This document shows, one piece after another, positions 1 to 64,000 of a stretch of 64,000 nucleotides of DNA. The number at the start of each line of letters is the position of its first letter. The stretch's first letter is position 1. Location: the NCBI GenBank assembly GCA_947499125.1, contig CANMMP010000001.1:930001-994000 (forward strand). Direction: 5' to 3'. The notes under the pieces are model-generated. The model worked only from the letters and a program-made list of their open reading frames with translations. It made no database searches and was not told the origin of the DNA. Origin of the DNA: an uncultured Pontibacter sp. Its GTDB lineage: Bacteria; Bacteroidota; Bacteroidia; Cytophagales; Hymenobacteraceae. Both the position numbers and the translations under genes were made by a program.

Positions 1-55
1 CTAATGGGGTTTGGTTAAGAGCAGCACCTGCCAGCTTAAGCCGGGTTTCTTTCAT
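1..55 (-). CDS. 5' end of a CDS running off the window, MKETRLKLAGAALNQTPL..., probably NAD+ synthase
   Basis: Reverse-strand ATG at 53-55; N-terminus resembles the nitrilase-domain start of bacterial NAD+ synthases; only 18 codons visible. Confidence 0.45.
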   Translation of the reverse strand, partial: MKETRLKLAGAALNQTPL

Positions 56-318
56 AGTTTGTATTTAACGCAAGTATAAAGTAGCAAGTTAGGTTTAATT
101 GCGGAAATGCTATACTGTAAAATTATGGAAGGCAAAACAGGTGAGTTTGTAGCTCAAAGAATAAAAAACAAGGAAGTAAAAGCTTAAGAAAACTAAGCTG
201 GCATCAGCGCCAGACTACTTTTGGTAAAGTGTTTTGCTATAGTTATTGTTGACTCAACAAAGTATAAAGCTCAGGAGGGATAATCGAACTATGGTTTGGT
301 TTGTTGCAAAACAAAAAA

Positions 319-341
319 GACGCAAGGTATTGCGTCTCTAC
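319..341 (+). repeat. REP-like palindrome gacgcaaggtattgcgtctctac (RAYT1 family, distal copy)
   Basis: Same sequence as the repeats around the RAYT gene at 33.6-34.2 kb. Confidence 0.85.
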
Positions 342-380
342 TTTAAGAATTTAACTATAGCTTGATCAGCACTTTAACAA

Positions 381-1118
381 TCAAGCTATCTTCAATATCT
401 CAAGGGATTTTTCGGCTGCGGCCTGGTCAGCTTTTTTCTTGGATAAACCTACCCCGGTCGCTACTGGTTTGTCGCCGATGTATACTTCGGTAGTAAATTC
501 GGTGGTGTTGCCCTGCTGCTTCTTTTTGATATTCTCAAACCTGATCTCCATGTTCTGGCTTTGCGCCCACTCGATCAGTTTACTTTTAAAGTTTGCAGTT
601 GTATTTACAAGCTGATGCAGGTCAACATGTGGCTTAATCAGTTTGCCAAGTATAAACTGGCGCGTCATGTTGTAGCCTTTATCCAGGTAAATAGCCCCAA
701 CAAGTGCTTCCAGCGCATTGCCGTTCACCGATTTGTGCCTGTTAATGCCGGGCTCAACTTTAACCAGCAAATTAAGGCCAATTTTAAGGGCGATATGGTT
801 CAGCGACTCGCGGTTAACAATGCGCGAGCGTATCTCTGTTAAAAAGCCTTCGTCTTCGTACGGAAATTTGCGAAAAAGAACTTCAGCCACAACAGCCCCT
901 AATACTGCATCGCCTAAAAACTCAAGGCGCTCGTTTGTATCGTGCTTATTGTTGCCTACTGTTTGCCGGGCAAAAGAGGTATGCGTAAGGGCAAGCTTGT
1001 ACAGCCTGACATTATCGGGAGTGCTACCAATAATACCGGCAAGGGCGCGTACTAAATCTCTATCCTTGTTAAAAACTCTGTGGTAGAAGCGCCGAACCGG
1101 TTTAATAGGACCAAACAC
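381..1118 (-). CDS. rnc: Ribonuclease III
   Basis: NERLEFLGDAVLGAVVAEVLF signature and C-terminal dsRBD. Confidence 0.97.
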   Translation of the reverse strand: MFGPIKPVRRFYHRVFNKDRDLVRALAGIIGSTPDNVRLYKLALTHTSFARQTVGNNKHDTNERLEFLGDAVLGAVVAEVLFRKFPYEDEGFLTEIRSRIVNRESLNHIALKIGLNLLVKVEPGINRHKSVNGNALEALVGAIYLDKGYNMTRQFILGKLIKPHVDLHQLVNTTANFKSKLIEWAQSQNMEIRFENIKKKQQGNTTEFTTEVYIGDKPVATGVGLSKKKADQAAAEKSLEILKIA

Positions 1119-2371
1119 TAGTCTTTCAGTTCTCTGAAAATTACAGATGTGTTATGTCCGCCGAAACCAAACGTATTGCTCAACGCTACTTTTACCTCAC
1201 GCTCCTGCGCCTTGTTAAACGTAAAGTTTAATTTCGGATTAAAGCTTTCGTCGTCGGTAAAGTGGTTGATGGTAGGCGGCACCAGGTTATTTTTGATGGC
1301 CAGTATAGAAGCAATAGCCTCTATAGCTCCGGCAGCACCTAATAAGTGGCCCGTCATTGATTTGGTAGAGCTGATATTCAGTTTGTAGGCATGGTCGCCG
1401 AACACGGTCTCTATGGCTTTGGCTTCGCTAACGTCGCCGAGCGGTGTAGATGTACCATGTACGTTGATGTAGTCTACTTCTTCTGGTTTGATGTTGGCAT
1501 CGCGCAACGCATTTTTCATTACGTTAAGGGCGCCTAATCCTTCCGGGTGTGGTGCGGTAATATGGTAGGCATCAGCAGACATGCCGCCGCCTAGTATTTC
1601 GGCATATATCTTTGCGCCACGTGCTTTAGCGTGCTCATACTCTTCCAGTATAATTGCGCCGGCACCTTCGCCAAGAACAAAGCCGTCACGGTCTTTATCA
1701 AACGGCCGTGATGCAGTTTCAGGTGAGTCGTTTCGCTCTGAAAGGGCTTTCAGGGCGTTAAAACCACCTATACCAGCCTCTGTAACTGCTGCTTCCGAAC
1801 CACCTGAAACGATGACATCAGCAATACCCAGACGGATATAGTTGAAAGCATCGAGAATAGCATTCGTAGCAGAAGCACAGGCTGATACTGTTACAAAGTT
1901 TGGCCCTCTGAAGCCATACTTAATGGAGATCTGACCAGCACTGATGTCAGCGATCATCTTCGGGATGAAGAACGGGTTGAAGCGTGGGGTACCATCGCCA
2001 TTGGCAAAGTTAACACACTCTTCCTGGAACGTGCGTAAGCCGCCTATTCCAGATCCCCAGATCACACCAACACGGTCAAGATCTATACTTTCTTCTGTAA
2101 GGTTTGCGTCTTGCACAGCCTCTTCGGCCACTACAAGCGCAAACTGCGTAAACAAGTCCATTTTGCGGGCCTCTTTACGATCAAAGTATTTTTCCGGATC
2201 GTATCCTTTTATTTCACAGGCGAACTGTGTCTTAAACTTACTCGCATCAAAGCGTGTGATAGGCGCAGCACCACTCACGCCATTAGCCAGGCCGTTCCAG
2301 TATTCTGAAACAGTATTTCCAAGTGGCGTGAGTGCGCCAAGCCCAGTAACTACGACTCTCTTAAGCTCCAT
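1118..2371 (-). CDS. fabF: Beta-ketoacyl-ACP synthase II
   Basis: VTVSACASATNAI active site, NVHGTSTPLGD, KSMTGHLLGAAGA. Confidence 0.98.
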   Translation of the reverse strand: MELKRVVVTGLGALTPLGNTVSEYWNGLANGVSGAAPITRFDASKFKTQFACEIKGYDPEKYFDRKEARKMDLFTQFALVVAEEAVQDANLTEESIDLDRVGVIWGSGIGGLRTFQEECVNFANGDGTPRFNPFFIPKMIADISAGQISIKYGFRGPNFVTVSACASATNAILDAFNYIRLGIADVIVSGGSEAAVTEAGIGGFNALKALSERNDSPETASRPFDKDRDGFVLGEGAGAIILEEYEHAKARGAKIYAEILGGGMSADAYHITAPHPEGLGALNVMKNALRDANIKPEEVDYINVHGTSTPLGDVSEAKAIETVFGDHAYKLNISSTKSMTGHLLGAAGAIEAIASILAIKNNLVPPTINHFTDDESFNPKLNFTFNKAQEREVKVALSNTFGFGGHNTSVIFRELKD

Positions 2372-2429
2372 AAGCTGTTACCAGAGGATAGATAGTAGAA
2401 AAAATTCTTATAATAAAAACAGAAGGGTA

Positions 2430-2666
2430 TTATTTAGCGTGCTCTTCCAGGTAGCTTACAGCCTGACCTACAGTAGCAATGTTCTCTGCCTGATCATCTG
2501 GAATAGATACGTTAAACTCTTTCTCAAATTCCATGATAAGTTCAACTGTATCCAATGAGTCTGCGCCAAGGTCATTTGTGAAGCTAGCCTCTGGAGTAAC
2601 CTCTGACTCTTCCACGCCAAGCTTATCGATAATGATAGCCTTTACTTTTTCTGCGATTTCTGACAT
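2430..2666 (-). CDS. acpP: Acyl carrier protein
   Basis: [17 protein letters not shown] phosphopantetheine site. Confidence 0.98.
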
Positions 2667-2818
2667 TTTTCTTATAGTTTATTAAAACACTGTGCAAAGA
2701 AATGTAATTAGGCAGACAATGTCAAAAAAAATTACTCTATTCGTGTTTTAGCAAAAGATTTTAGACTTGTCTGTCGTTTTACAAACTTGCTTCTTAAATT
2801 GTGCACCAAAGCAAAAGT

Positions 2819-3247
2819 ATGAAAACTTTTTACCTTGATACTGACTTCGAATACGATTTTGACCTGTATGGGTTGGTTGCACCTGGTAAAGATTACACAA
2901 TGGCCTGGTGGCTGAATAAAATTTTTGACTTACACCTTACCAGGCAAAAAGACTTATGCTATACATTACCCAGCCGCGAAAAAATACTTGTATCAAACTA
3001 TGAGTTCAGGACCGGGCACAGCATCATCCGGCTGTTCCGCAACAAAGCGCTGGGCACAAATACTGTACGCAAGCCATATTTTTTACCTGACGTGAAAGAG
3101 TATGACTTTGTACTGCAGATCAATGGAACGCTTCCCAAACTGTATCCGCAAAATTTTATAAACACACTGCTGCACATACCGTTAGTACAATATGCACGGC
3201 AGTTCGACCCCTTAACATTAAGGTTTAAAGAGAATCTGATTTTTTAA
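2819..3247 (+). CDS. IPExxxVDY-family protein
   Basis: ORF 2801-3247, likely start at ATG 2819; composition and position before pyk fit this Bacteroidetes family. Confidence 0.65.
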   Translation: MKTFYLDTDFEYDFDLYGLVAPGKDYTMAWWLNKIFDLHLTRQKDLCYTLPSREKILVSNYEFRTGHSIIRLFRNKALGTNTVRKPYFLPDVKEYDFVLQINGTLPKLYPQNFINTLLHIPLVQYARQFDPLTLRFKENLIF

Positions 3248-3249
3248 CT

Positions 3250-4677
3250 ATGAATATTACGTTTAACAAAACTAAAGTACTTGCCACTGTTGGCCCTGCC
3301 TCCAACACGTCGGAGCGGCTGCTGTCGCTGGTGCAAGAAGGTGTAGATGCTTTCAGGCTGAATTTTTCGCATGGAGAGCATTCGGAACACTTAGAAGTGA
3401 TTAACCATGTACGCGAGATCAATAACAAGCACAACATGACCGTGTGCCTGGTACAAGACCTGCAGGGCCCGAAAATTAGAGTGGGCGAAGTACAGAATGG
3501 CGGCGTTGAGATAAAAGAAGGCGAAGAGATTCTTTTGCGTTGCGATGGCTCGCTGAGTGTACCCGGCGTACTGGCAACCAATTACACTCACCTTGCACAA
3601 GATGTTAAGGTTGGCGATGCTATCCTGATAGATGATGGTAAACTGGAGCTGAAAGTACTGCACACCGACCACGACCAGCAAGTGCGCTGCAAAGTAATTT
3701 ATGGTGGCGTTGTAAAGCCCCGCAAAGGTATAAACCTGCCTGATACCAGCGTATCTGCCCCATCGCTTACCGAAAAAGACCTTCGCGACCTGCATTTTGG
3801 TCTGGATAACGATGTAGAGTGGGTTGCCCTATCGTTTGTAAGATCAGTAAGAGATATAAACGAAATTAAGCGCATTATAGAAGAGCGCGGAAAAGACACC
3901 CGGGTTATTGCCAAGATAGAAAAACCGGAAGCGATCAAGAATATCGACGAGATAATTGAAGCAACAGACGCGATAATGGTAGCCCGTGGCGACCTTGGCG
4001 TGGAAGTTGGTATGGAGAAGGTGCCGATGATCCAGAAAATGGTGGTTGAGAAAAGTAACCGGGCTGCCAAGCCTGTTATTATTGCCACACAGATGATGGA
4101 AAGTATGATCGTGAACCCCCGCCCTACCCGCGCTGAGACAAACGACATTGCCAATGCCGTGATTGACGGAGCCGACTGCCTTATGCTGAGCGCAGAGACC
4201 GCTGTAGGCGCTTACCCTGTTGAAACGATACGAAGCATGAACCTGACGATACAAACCGTTGAGGAGCATGCTGACATCTTTAACAAGAGTTATGTACTTA
4301 ACCCGCACTCGCAGCACTTCTGCAACGACAGCCTAGTAGCGAATGCCTGTAACCTGGCCCGCGATACCAATGCACGCGCTATTATTGGCATGACGAAATC
4401 CGGATACACTGCTTTTCAGCTGGCCAAGTATAGACCAAAGTCTGATATCTTTATTTTTACAGAGAACCACAGGCTCCTTAATACGCTGAATATAGTTTGG
4501 GGAGTAAGAGGCTTCTACTACGACAAATTCGAGTCGACTGACGCTACGATATCTGATATCAAAGAAACGCTGTTAAACGGCGGCCATATAAACAAAGGCG
4601 ATGTATTTATTAACACTGCCAGTATGCCGATAAACGAGCAGAAGCGTACCAATATGATAAAGTTAAGTATAGCCTAA
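3250..4677 (+). CDS. pyk: Pyruvate kinase
   Basis: TKVLATVGPAS, VMVARGDLGVEVG, KPVIIATQMMESM. Confidence 0.98.
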   Translation: MNITFNKTKVLATVGPASNTSERLLSLVQEGVDAFRLNFSHGEHSEHLEVINHVREINNKHNMTVCLVQDLQGPKIRVGEVQNGGVEIKEGEEILLRCDGSLSVPGVLATNYTHLAQDVKVGDAILIDDGKLELKVLHTDHDQQVRCKVIYGGVVKPRKGINLPDTSVSAPSLTEKDLRDLHFGLDNDVEWVALSFVRSVRDINEIKRIIEERGKDTRVIAKIEKPEAIKNIDEIIEATDAIMVARGDLGVEVGMEKVPMIQKMVVEKSNRAAKPVIIATQMMESMIVNPRPTRAETNDIANAVIDGADCLMLSAETAVGAYPVETIRSMNLTIQTVEEHADIFNKSYVLNPHSQHFCNDSLVANACNLARDTNARAIIGMTKSGYTAFQLAKYRPKSDIFIFTENHRLLNTLNIVWGVRGFYYDKFESTDATISDIKETLLNGGHINKGDVFINTASMPINEQKRTNMIKLSIA

Positions 4678-4701
4678 GCTTTCAGCTAACCTATAAACCA
4701 T

Positions 4702-4740
4702 AAAGCGCCTGCAGGAGTAAACCTGCAGGCGCTTTTTTTT
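4702..4740 (+). terminator. Rho-independent terminator of pyk
   Basis: AAAGCGCCTGCAGG-agtaaa-CCTGCAGGCGCTTTTTTTT. Confidence 0.9.
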
Positions 4741-4887
4741 ATGCCGTTATACTTTTAAAGTATAGCATCTGTTATTTGTGCAGTATAGTTACAGTGCGCT
4801 TTATACTTTGTGGGTAGTTTATACTTAGTAAACCGAGCAAAGCCAGTTGTAGACCTAGTATAAAGTATAAATCAAAAGAAACACAAA

Positions 4888-4914
4888 AAGCCTTGCGCGT
4901 GTGCACAAGGCTTT
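4888..4914 (-). terminator. Terminator-like hairpin downstream of rpsT
   Basis: AAAGCCTTG...CAAGGCTTT. Confidence 0.7.
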
Positions 4915-4936
4915 GAAACTATAATCTCAGCAAAAA

Positions 4937-5194
4937 TTAAGCTGCCAGTGTATTCACAAACTTTGCCAGTTTAGACTTGTTGTGAGCCGCTTTGTTTTTG
5001 TGGATGATGTTTTTCTTAGCCAGACGGTCAATCATGGAAGAAACTGTTTTGTACAGCTCCTGAGCCTCGGCCTGATCAGTCGTGTTTTTCAGTTTTTTGA
5101 TGAAAGTACGAGTAGTTTTCGCCTGGTATCTGTTACGAAGACGTTTAGCGTTATTCGCTCTGATTCTTTTTAATGCCGACTTATGGTTAGCCAT
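4937..5194 (-). CDS. rpsT: 30S ribosomal protein S20
   Basis: MANHKSALKRIRANNAKRLRNR. Confidence 0.98.
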   Translation of the reverse strand: MANHKSALKRIRANNAKRLRNRYQAKTTRTFIKKLKNTTDQAEAQELYKTVSSMIDRLAKKNIIHKNKAAHNKSKLAKFVNTLAA

Positions 5195-5401
5195 GTTATT
5201 TTATACTGATTAAAAGTTTTTATTCCGTATCTTGAATGAGTTTGCAAAGGTAAACCCTTTAGCGCTAATTTCCAAAGCATGTTCCGCATAAAAATATTTT
5301 TAGCGGCCCTGCAACAGGAAACTCAACTGAAGTACTGCAAATTTAACACAAATCCAGAACTTCCGGTTATTTAAACAGGCAATTCTATTAGCTATAAGCA
5401 T

Positions 5402-5443
5402 AAAAAAAACGGCAGCCACATTTAAGGGCTGCCGTTTTTTTTA
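5402..5443 (-). terminator. Rho-independent terminator
   Basis: AAAAAAACGGCAGCC...GGCTGCCGTTTTTTTT 3' of the 5461-5913 gene. Confidence 0.85.
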
Positions 5444-5460
5444 TTTTAGAAGTATGTTAA

Positions 5461-5913
5461 TTAGTTATTGTCACGGTTAACATCAACGTCTACATCAATA
5501 TCGTCGATCTTACCTAAACGCTTCTGAACTTTATCTTCAAACTCTTTCCATTCAGCTTTAGTAGCTTCCCAGTCACGACGGGTTTCTTCGTCCCAGGTAG
5601 AAGATTCGTTCTCAAATCTCTCTTCTTTTAGCTTATACTCAGCACGCATTTCACGATACTCGTCAGCAGTTACGTTGTCAGCTCTTTCGGTATTTGTTTT
5701 TACCCAGCCTTCAAACTCATTGTACTCCTGATTCATTTCGGTGCCTGCTTCATTCATATCAGCATTCAGCTCGGCATTCTCGTCGCTAAGTTCAGCCTGA
5801 GTTTCATCTACCTCAGCGTTCGTTTCGTTTTGGGTGTCCTGGCTACAGGCAAACATAAAAGTACCCATTGCCAATGCTAATCCTATCGTCTTAAATTTAG
5901 ATGCAATTTTCAT
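5461..5913 (-). CDS. Acidic secreted lipoprotein, unknown function
   Basis: Signal peptide plus lipobox TFMFAC, Glu/Asp/Asn-rich. Confidence 0.8.
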   Translation of the reverse strand: MKIASKFKTIGLALAMGTFMFACSQDTQNETNAEVDETQAELSDENAELNADMNEAGTEMNQEYNEFEGWVKTNTERADNVTADEYREMRAEYKLKEERFENESSTWDEETRRDWEATKAEWKEFEDKVQKRLGKIDDIDVDVDVNRDNN

Positions 5914-6200
5914 AGTGTTAATTGTTGTTTCTGGGGTATTGTACGCATAAAAATAAATAATGATATAAACAAGTCTATAATTTTAACTAAAACAGCTAAA
6001 TAACACTTAATAATACAACTAACTTCTTCATCAATTACAAATAATAACAACTCCTGCCATACATCTAAAATACAATTTACGTCAAAATTATAGCTTTTAC
6101 CAACCCCAAAATTTTTACTAACTTTGCGATACACTGCAAGCATACTATTACAGTTTTACACGTATAAAGAAGTATAGTGTAATACCAAATTCCTACTGCT

Positions 6201-7166
6201 ATGCCTCTTCTTAAATCTACTTACAAAGCACCCTTTTACCTCTTTAACGGGCACCTGCAAACCATTATACCCAGCCTGTTCCGGCAAGTGGAAGGCGTAA
6301 CCTATACCCGCGAACGACTGACCACACCCGACTTCGATTTTATTGATGTTGATTGGTCGCAGGTAGGTGCCGATAGCCTGGTTATACTTTCGCATGGCCT
6401 GGAGGGCGATAGCAGCCGGCCTTATATATTGGGTATGGTGCGTGCTTTTAACGAGCGCGGCCTCGATGCACTTGCCTGGAATTACCGCAGCTGCAGTGGC
6501 GAACCTAACAAACTGCTCCGTTCTTACCACCTGGGCGCTTCCGACGATCTGGCTTTTGTAGTGGAGCATGCGCTTACAACCGGCAACTATAACACCGTAC
6601 ACCTGATCGGGTTTAGCGCTGGCGGCAACATTACATTGAAGTATCTCGGTGAAACACCCGGGCAAGTACCTTCCGAAGTAAAACGGGCAGCGGTGTTCTC
6701 TGTACCCGTAGACCTGAAGGCATCAGCCCAGAAAATATCACGCATTTATACACAACGTTTCCTGAAAAGCCTGGGCGAAAAGCTGGAACAAAAACGCCAG
6801 TTATACCCTGATGATGTGGACCTGACCAACTATAGTATTTTCTGGACTTTCCCTGAGTTTGATGACCGTTATACGGCTCCGCTGCATGGCTTTAAGGATG
6901 CTGAAGATTATTATGCCCGTGTAAGTTCGCGCCAGTTCCTGGGCAATATAAAGCGCCCTACCCTACTGGTAAATGCCAAGAACGACCCTTTCCTGGCGGG
7001 TGGTTGCTACCCTATTGATGAAGCCAAACATAACCCTAACCTATTCTTAGAAATGCCGGATAACGGTGGTCATGTTGGTTTTACTGAAGATTTTAGAAAA
7101 GATATTTATTATTCTGAAGCACGGGCTGTACGTTTCTTGCTTGATGACGCAAGGAATTACCTATAG
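6201..7166 (+). CDS. YheT-family alpha/beta hydrolase
   Basis: NGHLQTIIPSL, LSHGLEGDSSRPY, GFSAGGNITLKYLGE. Confidence 0.9.
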   Translation: MPLLKSTYKAPFYLFNGHLQTIIPSLFRQVEGVTYTRERLTTPDFDFIDVDWSQVGADSLVILSHGLEGDSSRPYILGMVRAFNERGLDALAWNYRSCSGEPNKLLRSYHLGASDDLAFVVEHALTTGNYNTVHLIGFSAGGNITLKYLGETPGQVPSEVKRAAVFSVPVDLKASAQKISRIYTQRFLKSLGEKLEQKRQLYPDDVDLTNYSIFWTFPEFDDRYTAPLHGFKDAEDYYARVSSRQFLGNIKRPTLLVNAKNDPFLAGGCYPIDEAKHNPNLFLEMPDNGGHVGFTEDFRKDIYYSEARAVRFLLDDARNYL

Positions 7167-8053: not shown

Positions 8054-8055
8054 AA

Positions 8056-8729: not shown

Positions 8730-8951
8730 TCAGGCTGTGGTAAAGTATAAAACTATAGTTACCAAACCCACTAAAGCAACAGCAGCCAGGGCCATAAACA
8801 CATCGAATAAAAGTGTAAGCCCTGCATTACGGTACTGCCCGTCATATTTTATACTTAGCTCCTGCTCTATTTTAGCCGGATGGCGTAGCCGAAACTGCAG
8901 GTATAACTTCCCTGCTTTCGCTAACAACTTATCGCCTAAAACTGCTTTCAT
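8730..8951 (-). CDS. Small membrane protein, unknown function
   Basis: One C-terminal TM helix. Confidence 0.6.
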   Translation of the reverse strand: MKAVLGDKLLAKAGKLYLQFRLRHPAKIEQELSIKYDGQYRNAGLTLLFDVFMALAAVALVGLVTIVLYFTTA

Positions 8952-12305: not shown

Positions 12306-13382
12306 GTGAAAATACTCGACTGGTATATCCTGAAGAAGTTCCTGAGCACGTTTGTGTTTGCAGTACTCATATTGGTGTCCATCATCCTGGTAATTGATTT
12401 TACGGAGAAGAACGACGACTTTATACAGCAGAACGTGTCGGTATCAGAGATCATTTTTGATTATTATATCAACCTGGTTCCGTTTTATGCCAACATGCTC
12501 AGCCCGATCACGGTGTTTATCGCTACCGTTTTTGTAACGGCTAAACTGGCATCGCATACCGAAATTGTGGCTATGCTGAGCAGTGGCATCAGCTTCCGCA
12601 GGTTACTGGTTCCCTATGTTATCGGGGCTACAGTAATTGGCGCACTTATTTTTGGACTTATAGGTTGGGTTATACCTAACGCGAACAAAAAGAGCGTGGC
12701 TTTTCAGGTGAAGTATGTAAAAAACCCTTTTACTTACGACAGCCGCAACATCCATATTAAAATAGCACCAACTGCTTATGTGTATATGGAGAGCTACAAC
12801 AACAACGCACACATAGGCTACAACTTTGCGCTGGAGGAAATTGAAGGAACAACATTAAAAAGCAAGATCACCTCGAACAGCATTAGCTGGGACGAAGAGG
12901 CCGGCAAATGGCACATGGACTTTTATACGCTGCGCACCTTTAACGGCGAAGAAGAAACCATACACAAAGGCCAGGACCTAGACACCACCCTGAACATGCT
13001 GCCCAAAGATTTTGAGAGCACCTATAAACTGGAACAAACGCTTACTTTGCCCGAGCTGAACAGGCTGATAGACGAAAAACGCCAGCGAGGCGCCGACGAT
13101 ATTGAGCTATATCTGGTGGAAAAGTATGAGCGCTTCAGTTACCCATTTGCCATTATTATACTTACTGTAATTGGTGTAATTGTGAGCGCCCGAAAAGCCC
13201 GTGGCGGTGTGGGTGTACAAATAGCACTGGGTTTCTTCCTGGCTTTTGTGTTCATTGTTTTTGTTATTACCAGTCGTAGCCTGGCGCAGGTTGGCGATAT
13301 TCCGCCACATATTGCCGCCTGGATACCAACTATAGTTTTCACTGGAATCGGCTTTTTACTTTACCGTTATATACCACGTTAA
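12306..13382 (+). CDS. LptF/LptG-family LPS export permease (GTG start)
   Basis: YjgP/YjgQ topology, LDWYILKKFLSTF N-terminus. Confidence 0.92.
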   Translation: MKILDWYILKKFLSTFVFAVLILVSIILVIDFTEKNDDFIQQNVSVSEIIFDYYINLVPFYANMLSPITVFIATVFVTAKLASHTEIVAMLSSGISFRRLLVPYVIGATVIGALIFGLIGWVIPNANKKSVAFQVKYVKNPFTYDSRNIHIKIAPTAYVYMESYNNNAHIGYNFALEEIEGTTLKSKITSNSISWDEEAGKWHMDFYTLRTFNGEEETIHKGQDLDTTLNMLPKDFESTYKLEQTLTLPELNRLIDEKRQRGADDIELYLVEKYERFSYPFAIIILTVIGVIVSARKARGGVGVQIALGFFLAFVFIVFVITSRSLAQVGDIPPHIAAWIPTIVFTGIGFLLYRYIPR

Positions 13383-16495: not shown

Positions 16496-16496
16496 C

Positions 16497-19294: not shown

Positions 19295-20869
<1,575 letters not shown>

Positions 20870-24188: not shown

Positions 24189-26405
24189 GTGGAAAATCAA
24201 CTGACAACAGTAGAAACTGCTCAGAAGCTCGGCCTTCTGGAAGAAGAATTTGAAAAGATAAAACAGATTCTGGGCCGCACGCCCAATTTCACCGAGTTAA
24301 GTATCTTCTCCGTAATGTGGTCGGAGCACTGCTCTTACAAGAACTCTATTGTCTGGCTTAAAACGCTGCCAAAAGACTCGCCACGCATGCTGGCTAAAGC
24401 CGGAGAAGAAAATGCAGGCCTTGTTGACATCGGCGACGGTTACGCCTGCAGCTTCAAGATCGAATCACACAATCACCCATCTGCCATCGAGCCTTACCAG
24501 GGCGCCGCAACCGGTGTGGGTGGTATCAACAGAGATATTTTTACAATGGGTGCCCGTCCTATCGCGCAGCTTAACTCGCTTCGCTTTGGCAACCCTAAAT
24601 CAGAAAAAACGCAGCGCTTGCTACGTGGTGTAGTGAAAGGCATCGGCGATTATGGCAATGCTTTTGGTATACCTACCGTAGGTGGCGAGCTTTTCTTCGA
24701 CGAGACTTACAACATCAACCCATTGGTAAATGCCTTCTCAGCAGGTATAGTTAAAGTAGGCGAAACTGCTTCGGCAACCTCTTATGGCGTAGGTAACCCT
24801 GTGTTTATAGTTGGTTCTGCCACCGGTAAAGATGGTATACATGGTGCCGCCTTTGCATCTAAAGACATCACCGAAGATTCAGCCAAAGACTTACCGTCCG
24901 TTCAGGTGGGCGACCCGTTCCAGGAAAAATTGTTACTCGAAGCTACACTGGAGATCATTCAGTCGGGCCACGTAATAGGTATGCAGGATATGGGCGCGGC
25001 CGGTATTACCTGCTCTACTTCCGAAATGAGTGCCAAAGGCGAGCACGGCATGGATATATGGCTGGATAAAGTACCGATGCGCCAGGCCAACATGGTTCCG
25101 TTTGAGATCCTGCTTTCTGAAAGCCAGGAGCGCATGCTTATAGTTATGAAAAAAGGCTATGAGCAAACTATAAAAGATATCTGCGATAAGTGGGACCTGT
25201 ATTGTGAGCAGATAGGTGTTGTTACCGAAGGCGGCCAGTTAAGATATTACCAAAATGGCGAATTAGTAGCTGAAGTACCTGCCGACGACCTGGTGCTGGG
25301 CGGAGGCGCTCCGGTTTACCACCGAGAGTGGCGCGAGCCGGCTTATTTCCAGGAATCAAAGAAATTCAACATAGACCAGGTGCAGGAACCGGAAGATTAC
25401 CAGGCTGTAGCCGAATTCCTGACCACGCACCCGAACATTGCCTCTAAGCGCTGGGTGTATCGCCAGTACGACTCTATGGTTGGTACGGCCACCATGACGA
25501 CCAATGCCCCTTCGGATGCGGCTATAGTTAAAGTAAAAGGCACCAACAAATCGATAGCAGTAACGGTAGATTGCAACAGCCGCTACGTATACGCCGACCC
25601 GGAAGAAGGAACTGCTATTGCCGTTGCAGAAGCTGCGCGTAATATAGTTTGTTCTGGCGCCGAGCCGGTAGCTATTACCAACTGCCTGAACTTTGGTAAC
25701 CCGTATGTGCCGGAAGTATACTGGCATTTTGTAGGCGCTATTAAAGGTATGGGCAAAGCTTGTACTGCTTTCGACACGCCGGTAACTGGTGGTAACGTAA
25801 GTTTCTACAACCAGTCATCCGACGAAGGCCCGGTTTTCCCGACGCCAACTATAGGTATGCTGGGCATCCTGGAGGATAAGAACAACAAAATGACGCTTGC
25901 TTTCCAGAACGCCGGCGACATTATTTATATGATGGGTGATGCGCAGAACGACATCGCTTCGTCGGAGTACCTGTACTCTTATCATAACGTGAAGCTCTCT
26001 CCTGCCCCATACTTTAACATGGACGCAGAACTGAAGCTGCAAACGGCAGTAAAAGATGTAATCGCAAACAAGCTTATTAACTCAGCGCACGACGTGGCAG
26101 ATGGTGGTTTATACATCACATTACTGGAGTCGGCGATGCCAAAAGAGCTGGGCTTTGATATTGAAACAGATAAAAATTTCAGAAAAGATGCCTTTTTATT
26201 CGGCGAGAGCCAGAGCCGCGTAGTTGTTTCGGTTGCTCCGGTAAAACAGGCTGAGTTTGAAAAAGCATTGCAAAATAACGGTGTGAATTTCACCAAATTA
26301 GGTACTGTAACTGCGCATGATTGCCACATTGACGGCGAACTTTTTGGAGGCATTACGGTGGCTAAAAAACACTATGACACAGCGCTTGAGCAGATTTTAG
26401 ACTAA
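24189..26405 (+). CDS. purL: Phosphoribosylformylglycinamidine synthase PurL (GTG start)
   Basis: SVMWSEHCSYKNS, SHNHPSAIEPYQGAATGVGGI. Confidence 0.98.
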   Translation: MENQLTTVETAQKLGLLEEEFEKIKQILGRTPNFTELSIFSVMWSEHCSYKNSIVWLKTLPKDSPRMLAKAGEENAGLVDIGDGYACSFKIESHNHPSAIEPYQGAATGVGGINRDIFTMGARPIAQLNSLRFGNPKSEKTQRLLRGVVKGIGDYGNAFGIPTVGGELFFDETYNINPLVNAFSAGIVKVGETASATSYGVGNPVFIVGSATGKDGIHGAAFASKDITEDSAKDLPSVQVGDPFQEKLLLEATLEIIQSGHVIGMQDMGAAGITCSTSEMSAKGEHGMDIWLDKVPMRQANMVPFEILLSESQERMLIVMKKGYEQTIKDICDKWDLYCEQIGVVTEGGQLRYYQNGELVAEVPADDLVLGGGAPVYHREWREPAYFQESKKFNIDQVQEPEDYQAVAEFLTTHPNIASKRWVYRQYDSMVGTATMTTNAPSDAAIVKVKGTNKSIAVTVDCNSRYVYADPEEGTAIAVAEAARNIVCSGAEPVAITNCLNFGNPYVPEVYWHFVGAIKGMGKACTAFDTPVTGGNVSFYNQSSDEGPVFPTPTIGMLGILEDKNNKMTLAFQNAGDIIYMMGDAQNDIASSEYLYSYHNVKLSPAPYFNMDAELKLQTAVKDVIANKLINSAHDVADGGLYITLLESAMPKELGFDIETDKNFRKDAFLFGESQSRVVVSVAPVKQAEFEKALQNNGVNFTKLGTVTAHDCHIDGELFGGITVAKKHYDTALEQILD

Positions 26406-28240: not shown

Positions 28241-28436
28241 CCAGCCTCAGCATAACTATAACCTATACTTACTGTTATTCATTTTACTGAACTAACTATA
28301 GTTCAGGTTTTTGAGACTAGACTCCTGTTTTAAATCCGCTTACAATTTATCGTTATAATCAGGAGAGGCTAACGAGTTATTTTGTAGCTTTGCAGGCATA
28401 GTCAACCTAAACCCTTAATTAGCTTTAATTAAAACT

Positions 28437-32009: not shown

Positions 32010-32203
32010 AAAGTTTTAAAGCAACAGGTCTTTTTAGCTTTTAGCCTAAACTATAGTTTCCGGTTTGATCGATTTATAAGTATACTTACCTGCATTCTGT
32101 ATCTAATTTATACTTCTTAACCAGGCAGCTTCCCTATTAATCTGTTTCCGGTTTCGGAGCGTTTAGCTATATTTCGTGCTTACTTGCGTGCTGCACCAAT
32201 TCA

Positions 32204-57102: not shown

Positions 57103-57229
57103 TATATATTACAGAGAAATTATAGTATATTTGCTATCACAATAGTAGAAATTCATATTATATTACAGTAACCTACTGTATAGAGATGTTGTATATAGTA
57201 TAGCCTTCATCATCTTACAGCTTCGTCTT

Positions 57230-57454
57230 ATGCAACCAGTAGAAAAAGTTAACAAATCATTTTTAGCAAAACTGCTTTTACTTTGCGGCCTATTATATCT
57301 GGGGTTTGTAATGGAAGCACCTCCTTTCGTTAAAACTGTGCAGGCTAAAGAACTGAATGTATATACCAAGCCGAACGAACAGATGCATAAAGCGCAGCAC
57401 CTGCAGGATCTGTATATTCGTGTAGTACCCGAACCTGAAGAAACCGCCATCTGA
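57230..57454 (+). CDS. Small membrane/secreted protein
   Basis: Single hydrophobic segment, 74 aa. Confidence 0.5.
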   Translation: MQPVEKVNKSFLAKLLLLCGLLYLGFVMEAPPFVKTVQAKELNVYTKPNEQMHKAQHLQDLYIRVVPEPEETAI

Positions 57455-57549
57455 AAAACATTGTAGCCTGCCTTTAAGCAGGCTTTTTTTATGGCCTTGC
57501 CACAAAAAGCCTTAAATTAGCTGCACAACAAAAGACTTATACTTTAACT

Positions 57550-58323
57550 ATGGAATTTATACTTGTAACCCCACAGGCACAACCTCATGTTGCGCTTATA
57601 CAGCTAAATCGCCCTAAAGAACTTAACGCACTTAACCTGCAACTGATGGGTGAACTGCGCGATGCCTTAAAAGAACTTGATGAGAATGAAGAAGTACGCG
57701 CTATAGTTATAACAGGAAACGCACGGGCTTTTGCTGCAGGCGCCGATATAAAACAGATGGCCGGCAAAACAGCTATTGATATGCTGAATATCGACCAGTT
57801 CTCTACCTGGGACCAGATCCGTAAGACAAAAAAACCGATTATTGCTGCTGTGTCAGGGTTTGCGTTAGGTGGTGGTTGCGAACTGGCCATGACCTGCGAT
57901 ATGATCGTGGCTTCGGAGACTGCCATGTTTGGCCAACCGGAAATTAAGATTGGGGTGATGCCAGGTGCAGGCGGTACTCAACGCTTAACAAAAGCAATAG
58001 GCAAAGCCAAAGCCATGGAAATGGTACTGACCGGTAAATTTATATCTGCTGAAGAAGCTGAGAAACAAGGCCTGATAAACCGTGTAGTACCTGTAGAATT
58101 ATACTTAGAAGAAGCTTTTAAACTGGCAGGTGAGATCGCCCAGATGTCGCCGGTTGCCGTGAAGTTGGCCAAGGAATCTGTTAACCGCGCTTTTGAAACA
58201 CAACTGGATGAAGGCTTACACTTTGAGCGTAAGAACTTTTACCTGTGCTTCGCCTCTGAAGACCAGACTGAAGGCATGAATGCTTTTGTAGAAAAGCGCA
58301 AGCCAGAGTTTAAGGGTAGGTAA
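57550..58323 (+). CDS. Enoyl-CoA hydratase/isomerase family
   Basis: [43 protein letters not shown]. Confidence 0.96.
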
Positions 58324-58338
58324 CTATAGTTTACTTGA

Positions 58339-58391
58339 GGTCAAACCACCCCTGCCCCTCCTTATCCAAGGAGGGGAGCTCCTGCTCCTCA
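58339..58391 (+). repeat. CCCCTCCTTatccAAGGAGGGG element
   Basis: Same family as 37663-37713. Confidence 0.8.
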
Positions 58392-58509
58392 ATATTTAAG
58401 TTTTTTAGACTATAGTCTCTACTATTATATATTTAAGTATTGATTATATCTATAGTTATAAACCTGAAACCTACCTACAAAGCTATAACCACATTATAGT
58501 AATAACAGG

Positions 58510-58583
58510 GTTCCCCTCCTTGGACTACCGAGAACTAGAGTTTGAAGGTAGCGAGCGTAGCTCTGAGGGGCAGGGGTAGTTTA
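58510..58583 (-). repeat. Inverted, internally expanded copy of the same element
   Basis: Reverse complement reads ttaaactacccctgcccctc...tccaaggaggggaa. Confidence 0.75.
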
Positions 58584-58698
58584 ATCATCTCTGCTTAAAA
58601 GTGAGCATCATTACACTACTTAACTTCCTTCACTCCCCAAGTTCCCCCATCTACGAATAACTTTTGACGCTTTACTTTTTACTTTTAAGTATAAGCCT

Positions 58699-58706
58699 TA
58701 CCTTTG
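58699..58706 (+). promoter_or_regulatory. -7 promoter box TACCTTTG of the fur/perR-ahpC unit
   Basis: TAnnTTTG. Confidence 0.75.
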
Positions 58707-58723
58707 CAGGAACTTTTCTTAGT

Positions 58724-58738
58724 TAAGAATCATTCTTA
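58724..58738. promoter_or_regulatory. Fur/PerR-like box TAAGAAT-C-ATTCTTA
   Basis: Perfect 7-1-7 inverted repeat 18 nt downstream of the -7 box. Confidence 0.8.
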
Positions 58739-58746
58739 CTTAGACT

Positions 58747-59199
58747 ATGCAAAACCTGAACCGAAACGATTTACGACAACGACTGACTGAGTCTGGCTTT
58801 AAAGCCACGCATCAGCGTATTGTTGTGCTCGAGGCGGTAACGGAATTGCACGGGCACCACCCGACTGCTGAGGAAGTATACCAGAAGCTAAATCCGGCTA
58901 ACCCCACTATTTCGCTGGGTACAGTTTATAAAACACTTGATACTTTTGCCGAAGCAGAACTTATTAAGAGAGTGTTAACGGAAGAAGGCGGAAAGCGATA
59001 TGACACCTGCACTACAACGCATAGCCATATCTACTGCAGTAATACACGCGAGATAATCGATTTTGAAGACCCTGAACTTGAAAATCTGCTAAGAGATTTT
59101 TTTAGCAAAAAACAGGTAAACAATTTCGAGATAAAAAGCTTTGCAGTACAGCTAACCGGTAAAAAGGTGGAACCCGACAAACAGATCAGCATTAAATAA
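58747..59199 (+). CDS. Fur-family regulator (PerR-like)
   Basis: LTESGFKATHQRIVVLEAV, HHPTAEEVYQKL, SLGTVYKTLDTFAEAELI. Confidence 0.94.
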   Translation: MQNLNRNDLRQRLTESGFKATHQRIVVLEAVTELHGHHPTAEEVYQKLNPANPTISLGTVYKTLDTFAEAELIKRVLTEEGGKRYDTCTTTHSHIYCSNTREIIDFEDPELENLLRDFFSKKQVNNFEIKSFAVQLTGKKVEPDKQISIK

Positions 59200-59233
59200 T
59201 AAATAATTTTCAAACTAAATAAAAACTATAAAT

Positions 59234-59863
59234 ATGGCAGTATTAGTAGGTAAAAAAGCACCTTCTTTTAAAGCAATGGCTGTTGAGAACGGCGAATTCG
59301 TAGAAAACTTCTCTCTGGAGCAGTATATCGGTAAAAAACATGTGATCTTCTATTTCTACCCAATGGACTTCACTTTCGTTTGCCCTACCGAGATCATCGC
59401 GTTCCAGGACAGAATGGAGGAATTTGAGCGTAAGAACGTTGCTGTAGTTGGTTGCTCTACTGACACACATTTCTCTCACTTTGCATGGCTGAACACTCCA
59501 CGTAACCAGGGTGGTATAGAGGGTGTAAATTACCCGCTTGTAGCCGATGCAGCTAAAACTATCTCTCAGAACTACGACGTATTGGCTGGCCACTACGAGT
59601 ACAACGAAGAAGGCGAAGTTGAATTTGTTGGCGAACCGGTTGCTTACCGTGGCTTGTTCCTGATCGACAAAGAAGGCGTAGTACGTCACCAGGTGGTGAA
59701 CGACCTTCCGCTTGGTCGTTCTATTGATGAGGCGCTGCGTATGGTTGATGCCCTACAGTATTTCGAAGAGAAAGGCGAAGTTTGCCCAGCCAACTGGTCT
59801 GAAGGTAAAGAAGCAATGCAGGCTACTAAAGAAGGTGTATCTAGCTATTTAGCGAAACACTAA
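59234..59863 (+). CDS. Peroxiredoxin (AhpC/Prx type)
   Basis: YFYPMDFTFVCPTEIIAF, EVCPANW. Confidence 0.97.
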   Translation: MAVLVGKKAPSFKAMAVENGEFVENFSLEQYIGKKHVIFYFYPMDFTFVCPTEIIAFQDRMEEFERKNVAVVGCSTDTHFSHFAWLNTPRNQGGIEGVNYPLVADAAKTISQNYDVLAGHYEYNEEGEVEFVGEPVAYRGLFLIDKEGVVRHQVVNDLPLGRSIDEALRMVDALQYFEEKGEVCPANWSEGKEAMQATKEGVSSYLAKH

Positions 59864-59888
59864 GCTTTAACAGCTTAATTATAATACA

Positions 59889-59917
59889 AAAGCCCCGGCA
59901 TATGTCGGGGCTTTTCT
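59889..59917 (+). terminator. Rho-independent terminator
   Basis: AAAAGCCCCGgcatatgtCGGGGCTTTT. Confidence 0.85.
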
Positions 59918-59935
59918 TTTATAGTTATAGTATAG

Positions 59936-60334
59936 TTACACCATACGTATGAGCCACATACCGGTAAACGTTGCAAGTAACCCAAGTAACACACTGGCTA
60001 AAATATAAAGTATAGCCTGCCCATATTGCTCTGTTTGTAGCATATACACCGACTCCAGCGAAAATGCAGAAAAAGTAGTGAAGCCGCCCAGAATTCCGGT
60101 TGCCAGAAAAGGGCGCCATTCGCCGGGCATATTTCCTTTGGCAATCAATGCAAAGACAACTCCCATAAAAAAACAACCTATAATATTTACACCTAAGGTG
60201 CCAAACGGAAAAGGAACAACTGACCGGGTTTGAATATACAAGGTGAGCAGGTAACGCAGTACACCACCTATAAAGCTGCCCGCCCCTATTACAAGTAAGA
60301 TCTTCATGTATGCTTTGTTAGCTTGAGCTATCAA
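59936..60334 (-). CDS. crcB: Fluoride efflux transporter CrcB
   Basis: GSFIGGVLRYLL, FPFGTLGVNIIGCFFMG, TGILGGFTTFSAFSLE. Confidence 0.96.
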   Translation of the reverse strand: MIAQANKAYMKILLVIGAGSFIGGVLRYLLTLYIQTRSVVPFPFGTLGVNIIGCFFMGVVFALIAKGNMPGEWRPFLATGILGGFTTFSAFSLESVYMLQTEQYGQAILYILASVLLGLLATFTGMWLIRMV

Positions 60335-60356
60335 ATATAGAAGATTATAGTTAAAC

Positions 60357-60980
60357 CTACGGAGTGTAAGGTTTTAGTTCTCCGTCTTTCACCAGCCAGG
60401 CTTTATCGGCTTCTTTCAGTATTTCTTCTTTATCGTCGGAGTAGGCTTCTACAATTCTATACTTTTGGCCTTTAAAATACTCGTCTAAACGGGCGATCTT
60501 TTCTTCGGCTTTGCAGGCTTTGCCATCAACCAGGTAGGTGTTGTCGGTATAGTTCGCTCTTGTCCCGAAGAATCCATCGATCTTGTATAGGTCAAAAAGC
60601 GGCTCTACATATATCTCCAGGCCACCTGTAGCGCAAAAAATCTGTACACCTTCTTTCTTCAGCTTATCCAGTCGTTCCTTTATTTCCTGGTTAAAGTTAT
60701 CCGGATACTCCTGCTCCCAGAACTCTTTCGCATATTCCTTTACCTTGTCTGGTGGCAGGTTATCGAGATAATTAAAGAAGTTCTCTTTAAACTCCGTCTG
60801 CCTGATCTGGTGCATTTTAAGCAGCGCTTTATAGTATAGCATCTGTAAATAATAGGCAGCCTTATGCGGCTTTTTAGCACTTACAAACTTAAAGAACTCG
60901 TCTTTAGAGCTCTTGTTATAAAAGGTCTTGTTGAGATCGAAAACGGCTATCTTAATTTCCTGCCCGGTGTTGTCTGCCAT
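60357..60980 (-). CDS. HAD-IB-family phosphatase-like protein
   Basis: IAVFDLNKTFYNKSS, IFCATGGLEIYVEPL, EAYSDDKEE. Confidence 0.85.
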   Translation of the reverse strand: MADNTGQEIKIAVFDLNKTFYNKSSKDEFFKFVSAKKPHKAAYYLQMLYYKALLKMHQIRQTEFKENFFNYLDNLPPDKVKEYAKEFWEQEYPDNFNQEIKERLDKLKKEGVQIFCATGGLEIYVEPLFDLYKIDGFFGTRANYTDNTYLVDGKACKAEEKIARLDEYFKGQKYRIVEAYSDDKEEILKEADKAWLVKDGELKPYTP

Positions 60981-61097
60981 AGTGCATGTGCTGTTAAGGG
61001 TAAGGATAGTACGTAACTATAAGCGTCCAAGCTGAACCTATAGTAAAACTATTGCAGCTTAAACCGCTATATTTGCAGCAGAACACAAACTATAGTT

Positions 61098-62342
61098 TTG
61101 AAACTACTCTACGACATCGGCCTGAAAGCTTACAACGGACTACTTGCAGTAGCTGCTCCTTTTAAACAAAAGGCTAAGTTGATGCTGCAGGGCCGTGACA
61201 TGCAGTTTGAGAAGTTGCAGCAGGCGCTTGCCGGTAATACTGCACCGGTGGTGTGGTTTCATTGTGCATCGCTGGGTGAGTTTGAGCAGGGCCGCCCGGT
61301 TATGGAAGCCTTTAAAGCTGAGTTTCCGGAGTATAAGATCATGCTCACCTTCTTCTCCCCTTCCGGTTACGAGGTGCGCAAGAACTATAGCGGTGCCGAT
61401 TACATTTTTTACCTGCCGCTTGATAGCGCTGCCAATGCCCGAAACTTCATTTCTATAGTCCAGCCTAAGCTGACGGTGTTTGTGAAGTATGAATTCTGGC
61501 ATTATTACCTGCAGGAGCTGGAACAGCGCCAAATTCCTATACTTTCTATTTCGGCTATTTTCCGGCCAGACCAGGTTTTCTTTAAGCCTTATGGGGAGTT
61601 CAACCGCAACATGCTGCGCCGCTTTACGCATATTTACACCCAAAACAAACAATCTGTAGACCTGCTGCAAACTATAGATATAACCAACACAACTATAGCC
61701 GGCGACACCCGCTTTGACAGGGTGCTGCAAACAGCCGCAACTATAAAACCGATTCCGTTGGTAGATGCTTTTACCCGAGGCGGCGATGTATTTATGGTTG
61801 GTAGCAGTTGGCCTGCGGATATTGAGGTGCTGTTACCATTAATCCAGAAGTATAAGTCAACTATAAAATTTATCATCGCGCCGCACGAGATCCACGAGAA
61901 CGGTATCTCTACTTTAATGCAAACTATAGGTGAAGGTGCTGTGCGTTTCTCGAAGGCTGATGCAGCAACTATAGCTAACTATAACGTGCTGGTGATCGAT
62001 AATATTGGAATGCTGTCTGCCCTTTATAGTTATGGCACTTATGCTTTTATAGGTGGTGCGTTTGGTAAGGGCTTACATAATACCCTGGAAGCTGCTGTGT
62101 TTGGATTGCCATTGTTTTTCGGGCCGAAGTATGGCAAGTTCCAGGAAGCGGTGGACCTGGTAAAACTGGGTTGTGCCTTCCCGGTAAATAATGCGGATGA
62201 GCTGTTGGCTGCTTTTGAGAAAGTACATACCACACCCGGAGCACGCCAAACTATAACCGACAAAGAAAAAGCTTACGTACAAGAGCAGGCAGGTGCCACC
62301 ACACAAATTATGGCCGACATACAGCGCCTGTTAAAAAGATAA
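61098..62342 (+). CDS. waaA: 3-deoxy-D-manno-octulosonic acid transferase (TTG start)
   Basis: WFHCASLGEFEQGRPVME, TFFSPSGYEVRKNY, FIGGAFGKGLHNTLEAAVFGLPLFFGP. Confidence 0.96.
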   Translation: MKLLYDIGLKAYNGLLAVAAPFKQKAKLMLQGRDMQFEKLQQALAGNTAPVVWFHCASLGEFEQGRPVMEAFKAEFPEYKIMLTFFSPSGYEVRKNYSGADYIFYLPLDSAANARNFISIVQPKLTVFVKYEFWHYYLQELEQRQIPILSISAIFRPDQVFFKPYGEFNRNMLRRFTHIYTQNKQSVDLLQTIDITNTTIAGDTRFDRVLQTAATIKPIPLVDAFTRGGDVFMVGSSWPADIEVLLPLIQKYKSTIKFIIAPHEIHENGISTLMQTIGEGAVRFSKADAATIANYNVLVIDNIGMLSALYSYGTYAFIGGAFGKGLHNTLEAAVFGLPLFFGPKYGKFQEAVDLVKLGCAFPVNNADELLAAFEKVHTTPGARQTITDKEKAYVQEQAGATTQIMADIQRLLKR

Positions 62343-62343
62343 G

Positions 62344-63267
62344 ATGAAAGGAGTTGTAATAAAATCAACGGGTTCGTGGTACTTGGTTCGGGATGCGGAA
62401 GGCAAACTGCATCGCGCCCGTTTGCGTGGCAAGTTCAAGATAAAAGGCCTGAAAGTAAGTAACCCGCTGGCTGTAGGCGACCGCGTGGAGTTTGATGTGG
62501 AAACTACCGGCGAAGACACGGCCGTGATACATAAAATAGAAGACCGCGAAAACTACATCATCCGCCAGAGCACGCACAAAACGGCTTACTCGCATATTAT
62601 TGCTGCCAACTTAGACCAGGCATTACTTATAGTTACCTTAGTCTCGCCACGTACTTCTTTTGGTTTTATAGACCGCTTTTTAGTTACAGCCGAAGCCTAC
62701 GACATCCCAACGATACTTGTATTCAACAAAACCGATCTGTACGACGATGAAATGCGCAATTACCAGCGCCAGATCAGCCATATGTACGAGCAAATCGGCT
62801 ACAGCAGTATTACGGTTTCGGCGAAGACCAACGAAGGGATAGAAGAAATGAACAGCCTTTTACAAGGCAATACTACGTTGCTCTCCGGCCACTCCGGTGT
62901 TGGTAAATCCACGCTCATCAACCTTATAGTTCCGGACCTGGAGCTGAAGACCTCTGAAATTTCTGACTTTTCGGATAAGGGCGTGCACACTACCACCTTT
63001 GCCGAGATGTTTGAGATAGATAACGAAACATTTATTATTGATACGCCTGGTATAAAAGAATTGGGTATCGTGGATATCTCTAAAAACCAGTTGGGGCATT
63101 ACTTCCCGGAGATGCGCGACCGTATGAACCAGTGCCGCTTTAATAACTGCACTCACTTTAACGAGCCCGGCTGTGCTATAGTAGAGGCCGTGCGCAAAAA
63201 CGACATCTCGCTTACCCGCTACGAAAGCTACCTGAGCATGCTGATGGGTGACGACAACCGCAAGTAA
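62344..63267 (+). CDS. rsgA: Ribosome small-subunit-dependent GTPase A
   Basis: LLSGHSGVGKSTLINLI, DTPGIKELGI, C-terminal Cys/His zinc site. Confidence 0.97.
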   Translation: MKGVVIKSTGSWYLVRDAEGKLHRARLRGKFKIKGLKVSNPLAVGDRVEFDVETTGEDTAVIHKIEDRENYIIRQSTHKTAYSHIIAANLDQALLIVTLVSPRTSFGFIDRFLVTAEAYDIPTILVFNKTDLYDDEMRNYQRQISHMYEQIGYSSITVSAKTNEGIEEMNSLLQGNTTLLSGHSGVGKSTLINLIVPDLELKTSEISDFSDKGVHTTTFAEMFEIDNETFIIDTPGIKELGIVDISKNQLGHYFPEMRDRMNQCRFNNCTHFNEPGCAIVEAVRKNDISLTRYESYLSMLMGDDNRK

Positions 63268-63274
63268 GTATAGC

Positions 63275-63715
63275 CTACTCTGTGATCAGCCATTGCACAG
63301 CGCTCTGTTCGTCATTAAAGTTATGGAATTGCAACGTTGTATCTGAACCGGAAAGTGTGTTCTGAGCGAGTGCCTGTATAAAGTTTTCGCGGTTGAGATT
63401 ATTGGTGCCCAGGCGGGCAACTTTTTTAAGACGTGTACTCACCAGTAGTTTTGCAAAGTTTGTATTCATCTCCACAAATTCTTCGTCGGTAACGCCTTCC
63501 ACATTCTGGTGGGCATCTATCAGCAGCTTTTTTATATCGTAATTCCGGATCTTTTCCAGTAGCACCCCGATCGTATAGTTTAACTCAGCTCCCGTAGAAT
63601 ATTTCAGGTCCAGCCACCTTACTTTCAGAAGGTCAACAGACACATCATAACTCATCTCGGTTAGCCCGTCTTTATGTAAGATCATGCGGTAAAAGCTGTC
63701 AGCTGCTTGATACAA
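63275..63715 (-). CDS. Hypothetical protein (STAS/SpoIIAA-like size and pattern)
   Basis: 146-aa ORF. Confidence 0.6.
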   Translation of the reverse strand: MYQAADSFYRMILHKDGLTEMSYDVSVDLLKVRWLDLKYSTGAELNYTIGVLLEKIRNYDIKKLLIDAHQNVEGVTDEEFVEMNTNFAKLLVSTRLKKVARLGTNNLNRENFIQALAQNTLSGSDTTLQFHNFNDEQSAVQWLITE

Positions 63716-63864
63716 GGCTAATATAGTAAAAATATACTATAGTTGTAGGCCTATAATCCTAAAACCTGAAATTCCTAAGTATAAAAGCTTCAGAGTCGTT
63801 TGTTCAAACCATCTGTTCTTCGTGCCGTTAGTTTTCTGTATAACCTACTCTAAAACGAATACTT

Positions 63865-64000
63865 ATGAAGCTCGACAACGCGAATATTCTGATAACCGGC
63901 GGCACCTTAGGAATAGGCCATGCCACAGCCGAAATACTGATAAAGCACGGTGCCAACGTAGCTATTACTGGTCGCGACGATAAACGTACACACAAGGCTG
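63865..64000 (+). CDS. SDR-family oxidoreductase, truncated by window end
   Basis: MKLDNANILITGGTLGIGHATAEILIKHGANVAITGRD. Confidence 0.88.
   Translation, partial: MKLDNANILITGGTLGIGHATAEILIKHGANVAITGRDDKRTHKA

Follow-up and report, generated by a model that had tools for sequence, protein, structure and literature searches.

Why bacterial genomes become flooded with a short word has been open for decades in the case of HIP1, the highly iterated palindrome of cyanobacteria. Haemophilus and other Pasteurellaceae have uptake signal sequences, a self-DNA word that exists in two dialects and in multiple thousands of copies, and to our knowledge no uptake-sequence reader is known or predicted outside pilus-bearing groups. 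In the Neisseriaceae the DNA uptake sequences (DUS) are present in thousands of copies and form dialects with a short common core that follow the species tree, while some lineages are devoid of them (PMC3630211). The HIPs are replaced by alternative words in some cyanobacterial lineages and are tied to methyltransferases (PMC4390886), and E. coli carries about one Chi site in every 5 kb, nearly always on the leading strand (PMC8022716). Here we describe an iterated word, AASTATAR (S = C/G, R = A/G), in a stretch of 64,000 nucleotides of an uncultured Pontibacter sp. (contig CANMMP010000001.1, positions 930,001 to 994,000; hereafter the window), together with the related words of its genus. Most Pontibacter species hold thousands of copies of one exact word of 6-8 letters, and the main new finding is the system of dialects that these words form across the genus. 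A literature search, for which subscription papers were mostly beyond coverage, found no publication on the Pontibacter motif.

An asymmetric word repeated through the window and the genome

In an unbiased k-mer scan of the window, AACTATA and AAGTATA were the top two of all 7-mers. Counted on both strands they match 132 and 129 times vs 12.4 and 12.3 times in dinucleotide shuffles, where the maximum over all shuffles was at most 21. A preliminary description of this DNA had reported that both half-sites recur throughout the window, which understated their abundance. The logo of the 261 sites reads A-A-[C/G]-T-A-T-A followed by A or G, and the flanks carry no further information. This asymmetry rules out a palindrome as the repeated unit; the iterated unit is the 8-mer AASTATAR. 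The palindromes, which had been taken for the motif before, are overlapping inverted copies of it and occur about 9-fold over chance in the window and up to 40-fold in genomes with the AAC form. All five positions reported for AACTATAGTT are correct and one more copy was found (Table 1), whereas AAGTATACTT is present as claimed but starts one base before the reported 32079. Between 61001 and 62341 we counted 13 matches to AACTATA/TATAGTT instead of 11, the palindrome at 61088 counting twice. Most single-base variants of AASTATAR are near background, indicating that recognition is all-or-none.

When synonymous codons were shuffled within each gene, 15.1 coding sites were expected in the window vs 129 present, so that amino-acid and codon choice are no explanation of the excess. 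The coding sites occupy every combination of strand and frame. Between genes 90 AASTATAR sites were found vs 5.1 in a first-order Markov model (17.5-fold), and the whole genome of 3.98 Mb contains 12,651 sites vs 642 for the word read backwards. These counts are all clearly above the margin of about 2-fold over a codon- and dinucleotide-matched expectation, genome-wide, that the preliminary description had named. The motif yields to protein constraint, as the strongly constrained atpD is free of sites. The other five genera of the Hymenobacteraceae (155 genomes) show no excess of the word over its control; it is lineage-specific.

Dialects, maintenance and loss across Pontibacter

For the genus, 50 Pontibacter genomes were compared, and dialects were called from 17-64 kb sampled from each of them together with whole-genome counts. 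The words differ by clade around a common TATA core, giving AAG-, AAC-, AAS- (the genome of the window), AGG- and GG-forms and YATATA. AAGTATA is the dialect of 20 genomes (e.g., P. flavimaris, P. arcticus, and P. oryzae), and AGGTATA that of 12 (P. roseus and allies), where it reaches 20-50 times the control word genome-wide. AACTATA is dominant in P. populi, P. fetidus, P. burrus, strain Tf4 and genome G175; in P. fetidus a clear AAG minority stands beside it and in P. vulgaris, conversely, an AAC minority accompanies AAG. Both forms are about equally frequent (AAS) in the genome of the window and in G159. Two dialects were found in single genomes and called from 42-80 kb and partial genome counts, i.e., TATATA/CATATA in G182 (TATATA 147 vs 6.7 in 80 kb) and GGTATA in strain E15-1 (87 vs 10 in 42 kb). 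No enriched word of this kind was detected in eight of the 50 genomes, namely G154, G160, G174, G176, G180, G183, G184 and G193. When data are pooled, the enrichment of the three main dialects (AAG, AGG and AAC) is about 16-28-fold, inside as well as outside genes. The eighth base is preferred in the order G>A>C in pure AAC genomes and A>C,G in pure AAG genomes, but A,G>C for both the C and the G form in the genome of the window, which suggests a single S-type specificity there and not two mixed ones. In a 12-gene tree of 25 genomes the dialect follows the species tree. Five or more dialects, several states that are graded or mixed, and no fewer than five independent losses make the genus a natural experiment.

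Syntenic alignments show that sites are maintained only for as long as the species uses their dialect. Between AAG species 59% of the sites are kept vs 33% for permuted control 7-mers, whereas across most dialect differences only 0-13% are kept vs 20-26% for control words. Of 344 sites compared within the AAC/AAS group, 40 have exchanged C for G or G for C at their third base while staying in place, and the motif-less genome G193 retains 6% of the sites of its relatives vs 16% of control words. The sites show no strand bias (local strand chi-square 53.9, 46 degrees of freedom) and no leading-strand polarity (593 vs 596 over 19 stretches of one complete chromosome). Intergenic sites follow a Poisson distribution (chi-square 38.9, 35 degrees of freedom) with some clustering, and coverage is near-even along the whole chromosome. 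On three plasmid-like second replicons, the number on which this contrast is based, the AAG word occurs at 0.20-0.30 per kb vs 0.88-1.55 per kb on the matching chromosomes.

A mutation or repair bias that creates the word alone, without any selecting reader, would be in line with the chromosome-wide enrichment and the Poisson-distributed sites. However, all seven positions are needed at once while most near misses stay near background, and the words from which a single mutational step starts would become depleted. The near-background level on the three plasmid-like replicons, the dialect-specific conservation and the different dialects of sister species also speak against such a bias, which we regard as very unlikely. 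The earlier proposal of a lineage-specific iterated motif with a process that maintains it was right in kind, but mutation bias, one of the processes it listed, is hardly sufficient alone. An abundant nucleoid or chromosome-organising protein could instead bind the word, with a small direct selective benefit from each copy that is unrelated to uptake or recombination. This would agree with the near-even coverage of genes and intergenic regions alike, with the independence of neighbouring sites and with the vertical inheritance of the dialects. However, no candidate protein was identified, known nucleoid proteins are far less sequence-strict, and repeated complete loss without replacement would be unusual for an essential organiser, which makes this explanation improbable.

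The motif-less state requires five changes on the tree of the AddAB proteins, so that the eight genomes represent at least five independent losses. Motif-less genomes measure 5.2-6.5 Mb (mean 5.9) vs 3.8-5.6 Mb (mean 4.6) in the others (p 7.6e-6, uncorrected for phylogeny). Among five independent pairs none has the opposite size difference, five pairs being too few for significance.

A possible self-DNA mark and the search for its reader

The abundance and sharpness of the word, the dialects and their dialect-dependent maintenance, the contrast between chromosomes and plasmids and the repeated losses were all observed directly. Any candidate reader must match both presence and specificity over the 50 genomes. 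The explanation that we favour, with a probability of about 40%, is that AASTATAR, together with its sister dialects, marks Pontibacter DNA as self during uptake or recombination. One sequence-specific reader, vertically inherited and repeatedly lost, would recognise 6-8 bp with a TATA core and would give motif-bearing DNA an advantage either in uptake from relatives or as recombination donor. Each new perfect copy would be slightly favoured while near misses would gain nothing, and sites would accumulate independently wherever protein constraint allows, decay upon loss of the reader and be rewritten when its specificity shifts. That there is one reader, at which of the two steps it acts, and that the advantage per site is roughly constant, we infer from the pattern of sites. 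In a simple mutation-selection-drift balance the scaled advantage per site would be near 3, the logarithm of the 16-28-fold enrichment.

Several results argue for such a self-DNA mark. The dialects are clade-wise with a common core, as in the uptake sequences of Neisseriaceae, and sites are conserved only between species of the same dialect. There is no strand bias, intergenic sites are Poisson distributed, the enrichment is alike in and between genes, most one-letter variants are near background, and plasmid-like replicons are site-poor. The five independent losses go along with larger motif-less genomes. In addition, Riemerella columbina, a pilus-less species of the Bacteroidota, prefers its own DNA in transformation (PMC7965970), which makes a pilus-free self-recognition system plausible. 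The parallel to DUS, mentioned in passing in the preliminary description, is the closest behavioural match: a short asymmetric word in thousands of copies and both orientations, with core-sharing dialects along the phylogeny and devoid lineages. Unlike DUS, the Pontibacter word has 6-8 instead of 10-12 bp, is denser (about 1.5-3.4 per kb) and belongs to Bacteroidota, in a genus that lacks the type IV pilus motor; its maintenance did not appear to depend on the two competence genes compared. Given the missing pilus machine and a link to genes that is putative, we do not class the word as a DUS. The uptake signal sequences of Pasteurellaceae differ in being longer and in serving a pilus-based uptake, for which Pontibacter has no motor.

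The following observations weigh against a self-DNA mark. An ATPase of the PilB/PilT/T2SSE type was found in none of the 50 genomes, where the only matches, of about 20-26 bits, covered 50-60 residues of a protein about 650 amino acids long. The machines known for uptake sequences are thus absent, and type IV pilus uptake with a minor-pilin receptor was rejected. ComEC was found in all 50 genomes, interrupted by stops in two of them, G167 and G187. All motif-less genomes, G193 included, have ComEC intact together with a HhH competence protein resembling the one that is essential for transformation in Riemerella (PMC8459023). In G167, conversely, both genes are broken, yet it retains sites no worse than its relatives do, so that these genes do not seem to track the motif and were rejected as reader. 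The loss in G167 may be recent, and its genome-wide enrichment of 5.4 is below the 9.6-14 of its relatives. A surface protein with DUF5689, as in Riemerella, was rejected as well since it shows no association with the motif and the matches are unrelated LTD-like and SusD-neighbour proteins. Finally, intergenic sites show no short-range avoidance, unlike what is expected if one site per fragment sufficed; together with the Poisson spacing this means that each site behaves independently.

The G167 genome, a single contig of 5.46 Mb, carries at C1:2771217-2771876 and C1:2078296-2078647 the genes of ComEC and of the two-HhH competence protein, both interrupted by stops. This double interruption suggests a recent loss of natural competence.

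A more specific version of the self-DNA mark, put forward tentatively, would be a new, pilus-independent system for DNA discrimination, in which a Pontibacter-specific reader marks self DNA by the 6-8 bp word, changes its dialect at thousands of sites without moving them and, once lost, allows the genome to expand by roughly a quarter. If the word marks self DNA, sexual isolation of pilus-less Bacteroidota would be explained, and adding the right word to donor DNA would offer a practical way to transform these bacteria.

A different role in recombination is offered by AddAB. Here the word would be a Chi site, which stops the destruction of DNA by the helicase-nuclease at double-strand breaks, so that chromosomes fill with the word and the dialects follow the specificity of AddB. 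Like the Chi sites of RecBCD/AddAB, the word is short, asymmetric, partly degenerate and enriched on the chromosome, and the site-poor plasmid-like replicons are expected for a Chi of the core genome. AddB is present in all 50 genomes, with AddA adjoining in 49. The AddA+AddB tree sorts by dialect, with AGG forming one clade and AAC/AAS another. The third base of the word changed on the AAC/AAS stem, and there AddAB diverged 5.2 times more than the eight proteins used as controls, through either transfer or rapid evolution. Residues R83 and L370 of AddB are altered in five of six motif-less lineages (permutation p 0.0175), with G148 as motif-bearing exception; all AddAB statistics are post hoc. 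However, since the dialect also follows the species tree, the clustering of AddAB by dialect is weak evidence. No acceleration was seen on the AGG, TATATA and GG tips and no column in the N-terminus of AddB separates AAG from AGG. AddAB is intact in the motif-less genomes, except for G184 where addA was not found beside addB, and the N-terminus of AddB in motif-less G193 is nearly identical to that of G147 (AAG). In contrast to Chi of E. coli, the word has no leading-strand polarity, is more than 10 times denser and was lost in lineages that keep AddAB. The like sorting of the 12-gene tree and the intact AddAB of motif-less genomes weaken AddAB as decisive reader, and we retain it as an unlikely alternative.

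Independent of the motif question, the diverged addA-addB pair of the AAC/AAS group (L230:3389-10409, homologues L231-L279) points to a replacement or a burst of change. A second, divergent AddAB-like gene pair was found at G157:C13:33024-36438 and G187:C54:158071-161480.

A further alternative is a system like that of HIP1, the parallel drawn in the preliminary description. In such a system an orphan DNA methyltransferase would read the word and methylation-directed mismatch repair would ratchet near misses into perfect sites. Cyanobacterial HIPs have a similar density, are replaced by other words in some lineages and have matching methyltransferases (PMC4390886). The likeness holds for abundance, with a genome-wide excess of the same order in and between genes, and for word replacement, and an asymmetric word of 6-8 bp would suit a one-strand adenine methyltransferase. 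It fails for palindromy. HIPs are GC-rich palindromes with methyltransferases, whereas the Pontibacter word is AT-rich and asymmetric, hence not a HIP by definition, and is tracked by no methyltransferase tested. Of the two families tested, PF01555 (N6_N4 methyltransferases) is lacking in 19 of the 50 genomes, among them many with abundant motif copies, and strong matches to PF07669 (Eco57I-type) are sporadic, so that both were rejected as driver. A conserved MmeI/DISARM-like methyltransferase of 1156 amino acids was rejected too, as it was detected, at the sensitivity of the weak PF07669 matches from which its distribution was read, in a minority of genomes and twice in motif-less G193. As the TATATA dialect contains neither G nor C, cytosine methylation cannot be general. 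We consider this ratchet as improbable as the nucleoid protein; both rank behind the Chi site, and the self-DNA mark remains the likeliest explanation.

The 1156-aa methyltransferase (L180:5294-8764, minus strand; L183-L197) is read as a mobile defence gene; its copies have about 80% identity, are scattered over the genus with variable neighbours and occur twice in G190 and G193.

Features of the window and further observations

Table 1. Sites, palindromes and genes in the window, and the dialect words.
Feature	Position	Strand	Remark
AASTATA sites, whole window	1..64000	both strands	261 (132 AACTATA + 129 AAGTATA); 226 fit full AASTATAR
AACTATAGTT	8751..8760		two overlapping inverted copies; sixth copy, absent from the preliminary description
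AACTATAGTT	13328..13337		two overlapping inverted copies
AACTATAGTT	28294..28303		two overlapping inverted copies, intergenic
AACTATAGTT	32049..32058		two overlapping inverted copies, intergenic
AAGTATACTT	32078..32087		two overlapping inverted copies of the AAG form
AACTATAGTT	58322..58331		two overlapping inverted copies
AACTATAGTT	61088..61097		upstream of waaA-like gene
waaA-like gene (Kdo transferase)	61098..62342	+	among the genes richest in the word: 12 AASTATAR (9.7 per kb)
atpD (F0F1 ATP synthase beta)	19295..20851	-	strongly constrained; 0 sites
purL	24189..26405	+	anchor for retrieving named Pontibacter relatives and for species comparison
Dialect words as sequences			AACTATAG, AAGTATAA, AGGTATAG

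The PurL of the window is 95% identical to that of Pontibacter mangrovi and other named Pontibacter, and by matching coordinates 17 named species were assigned to genomes of the set. Half of the 50 genomes (25) have this small form of 738 aa intact, whereas the other 25 have a long PurL of about 1230 aa, and many of the latter retain decayed C-terminal remnants of the small form. These gene remains are best read as several stages in which one form of an essential enzyme gives way to another. The switch between small and long PurL does not correlate with the motif and was rejected as its cause.

Other short words deviate from expectation too. CTAG is strongly depleted in the window (48 vs 503 expected from dinucleotides). 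Genus-wide, CAGGTA/ACCTGC is 3-4-fold over-represented, more in genes than between them and whatever the dialect (e.g., L286-L288). In other Bacteroidota (metagenome-assembled genomes including Chitinophagaceae; L024, L054, L062, L020, and L074) ACCGGTR/ACCGGCA shows an excess of about 8-19-fold in 13-22 kb and is perhaps another iterated motif.

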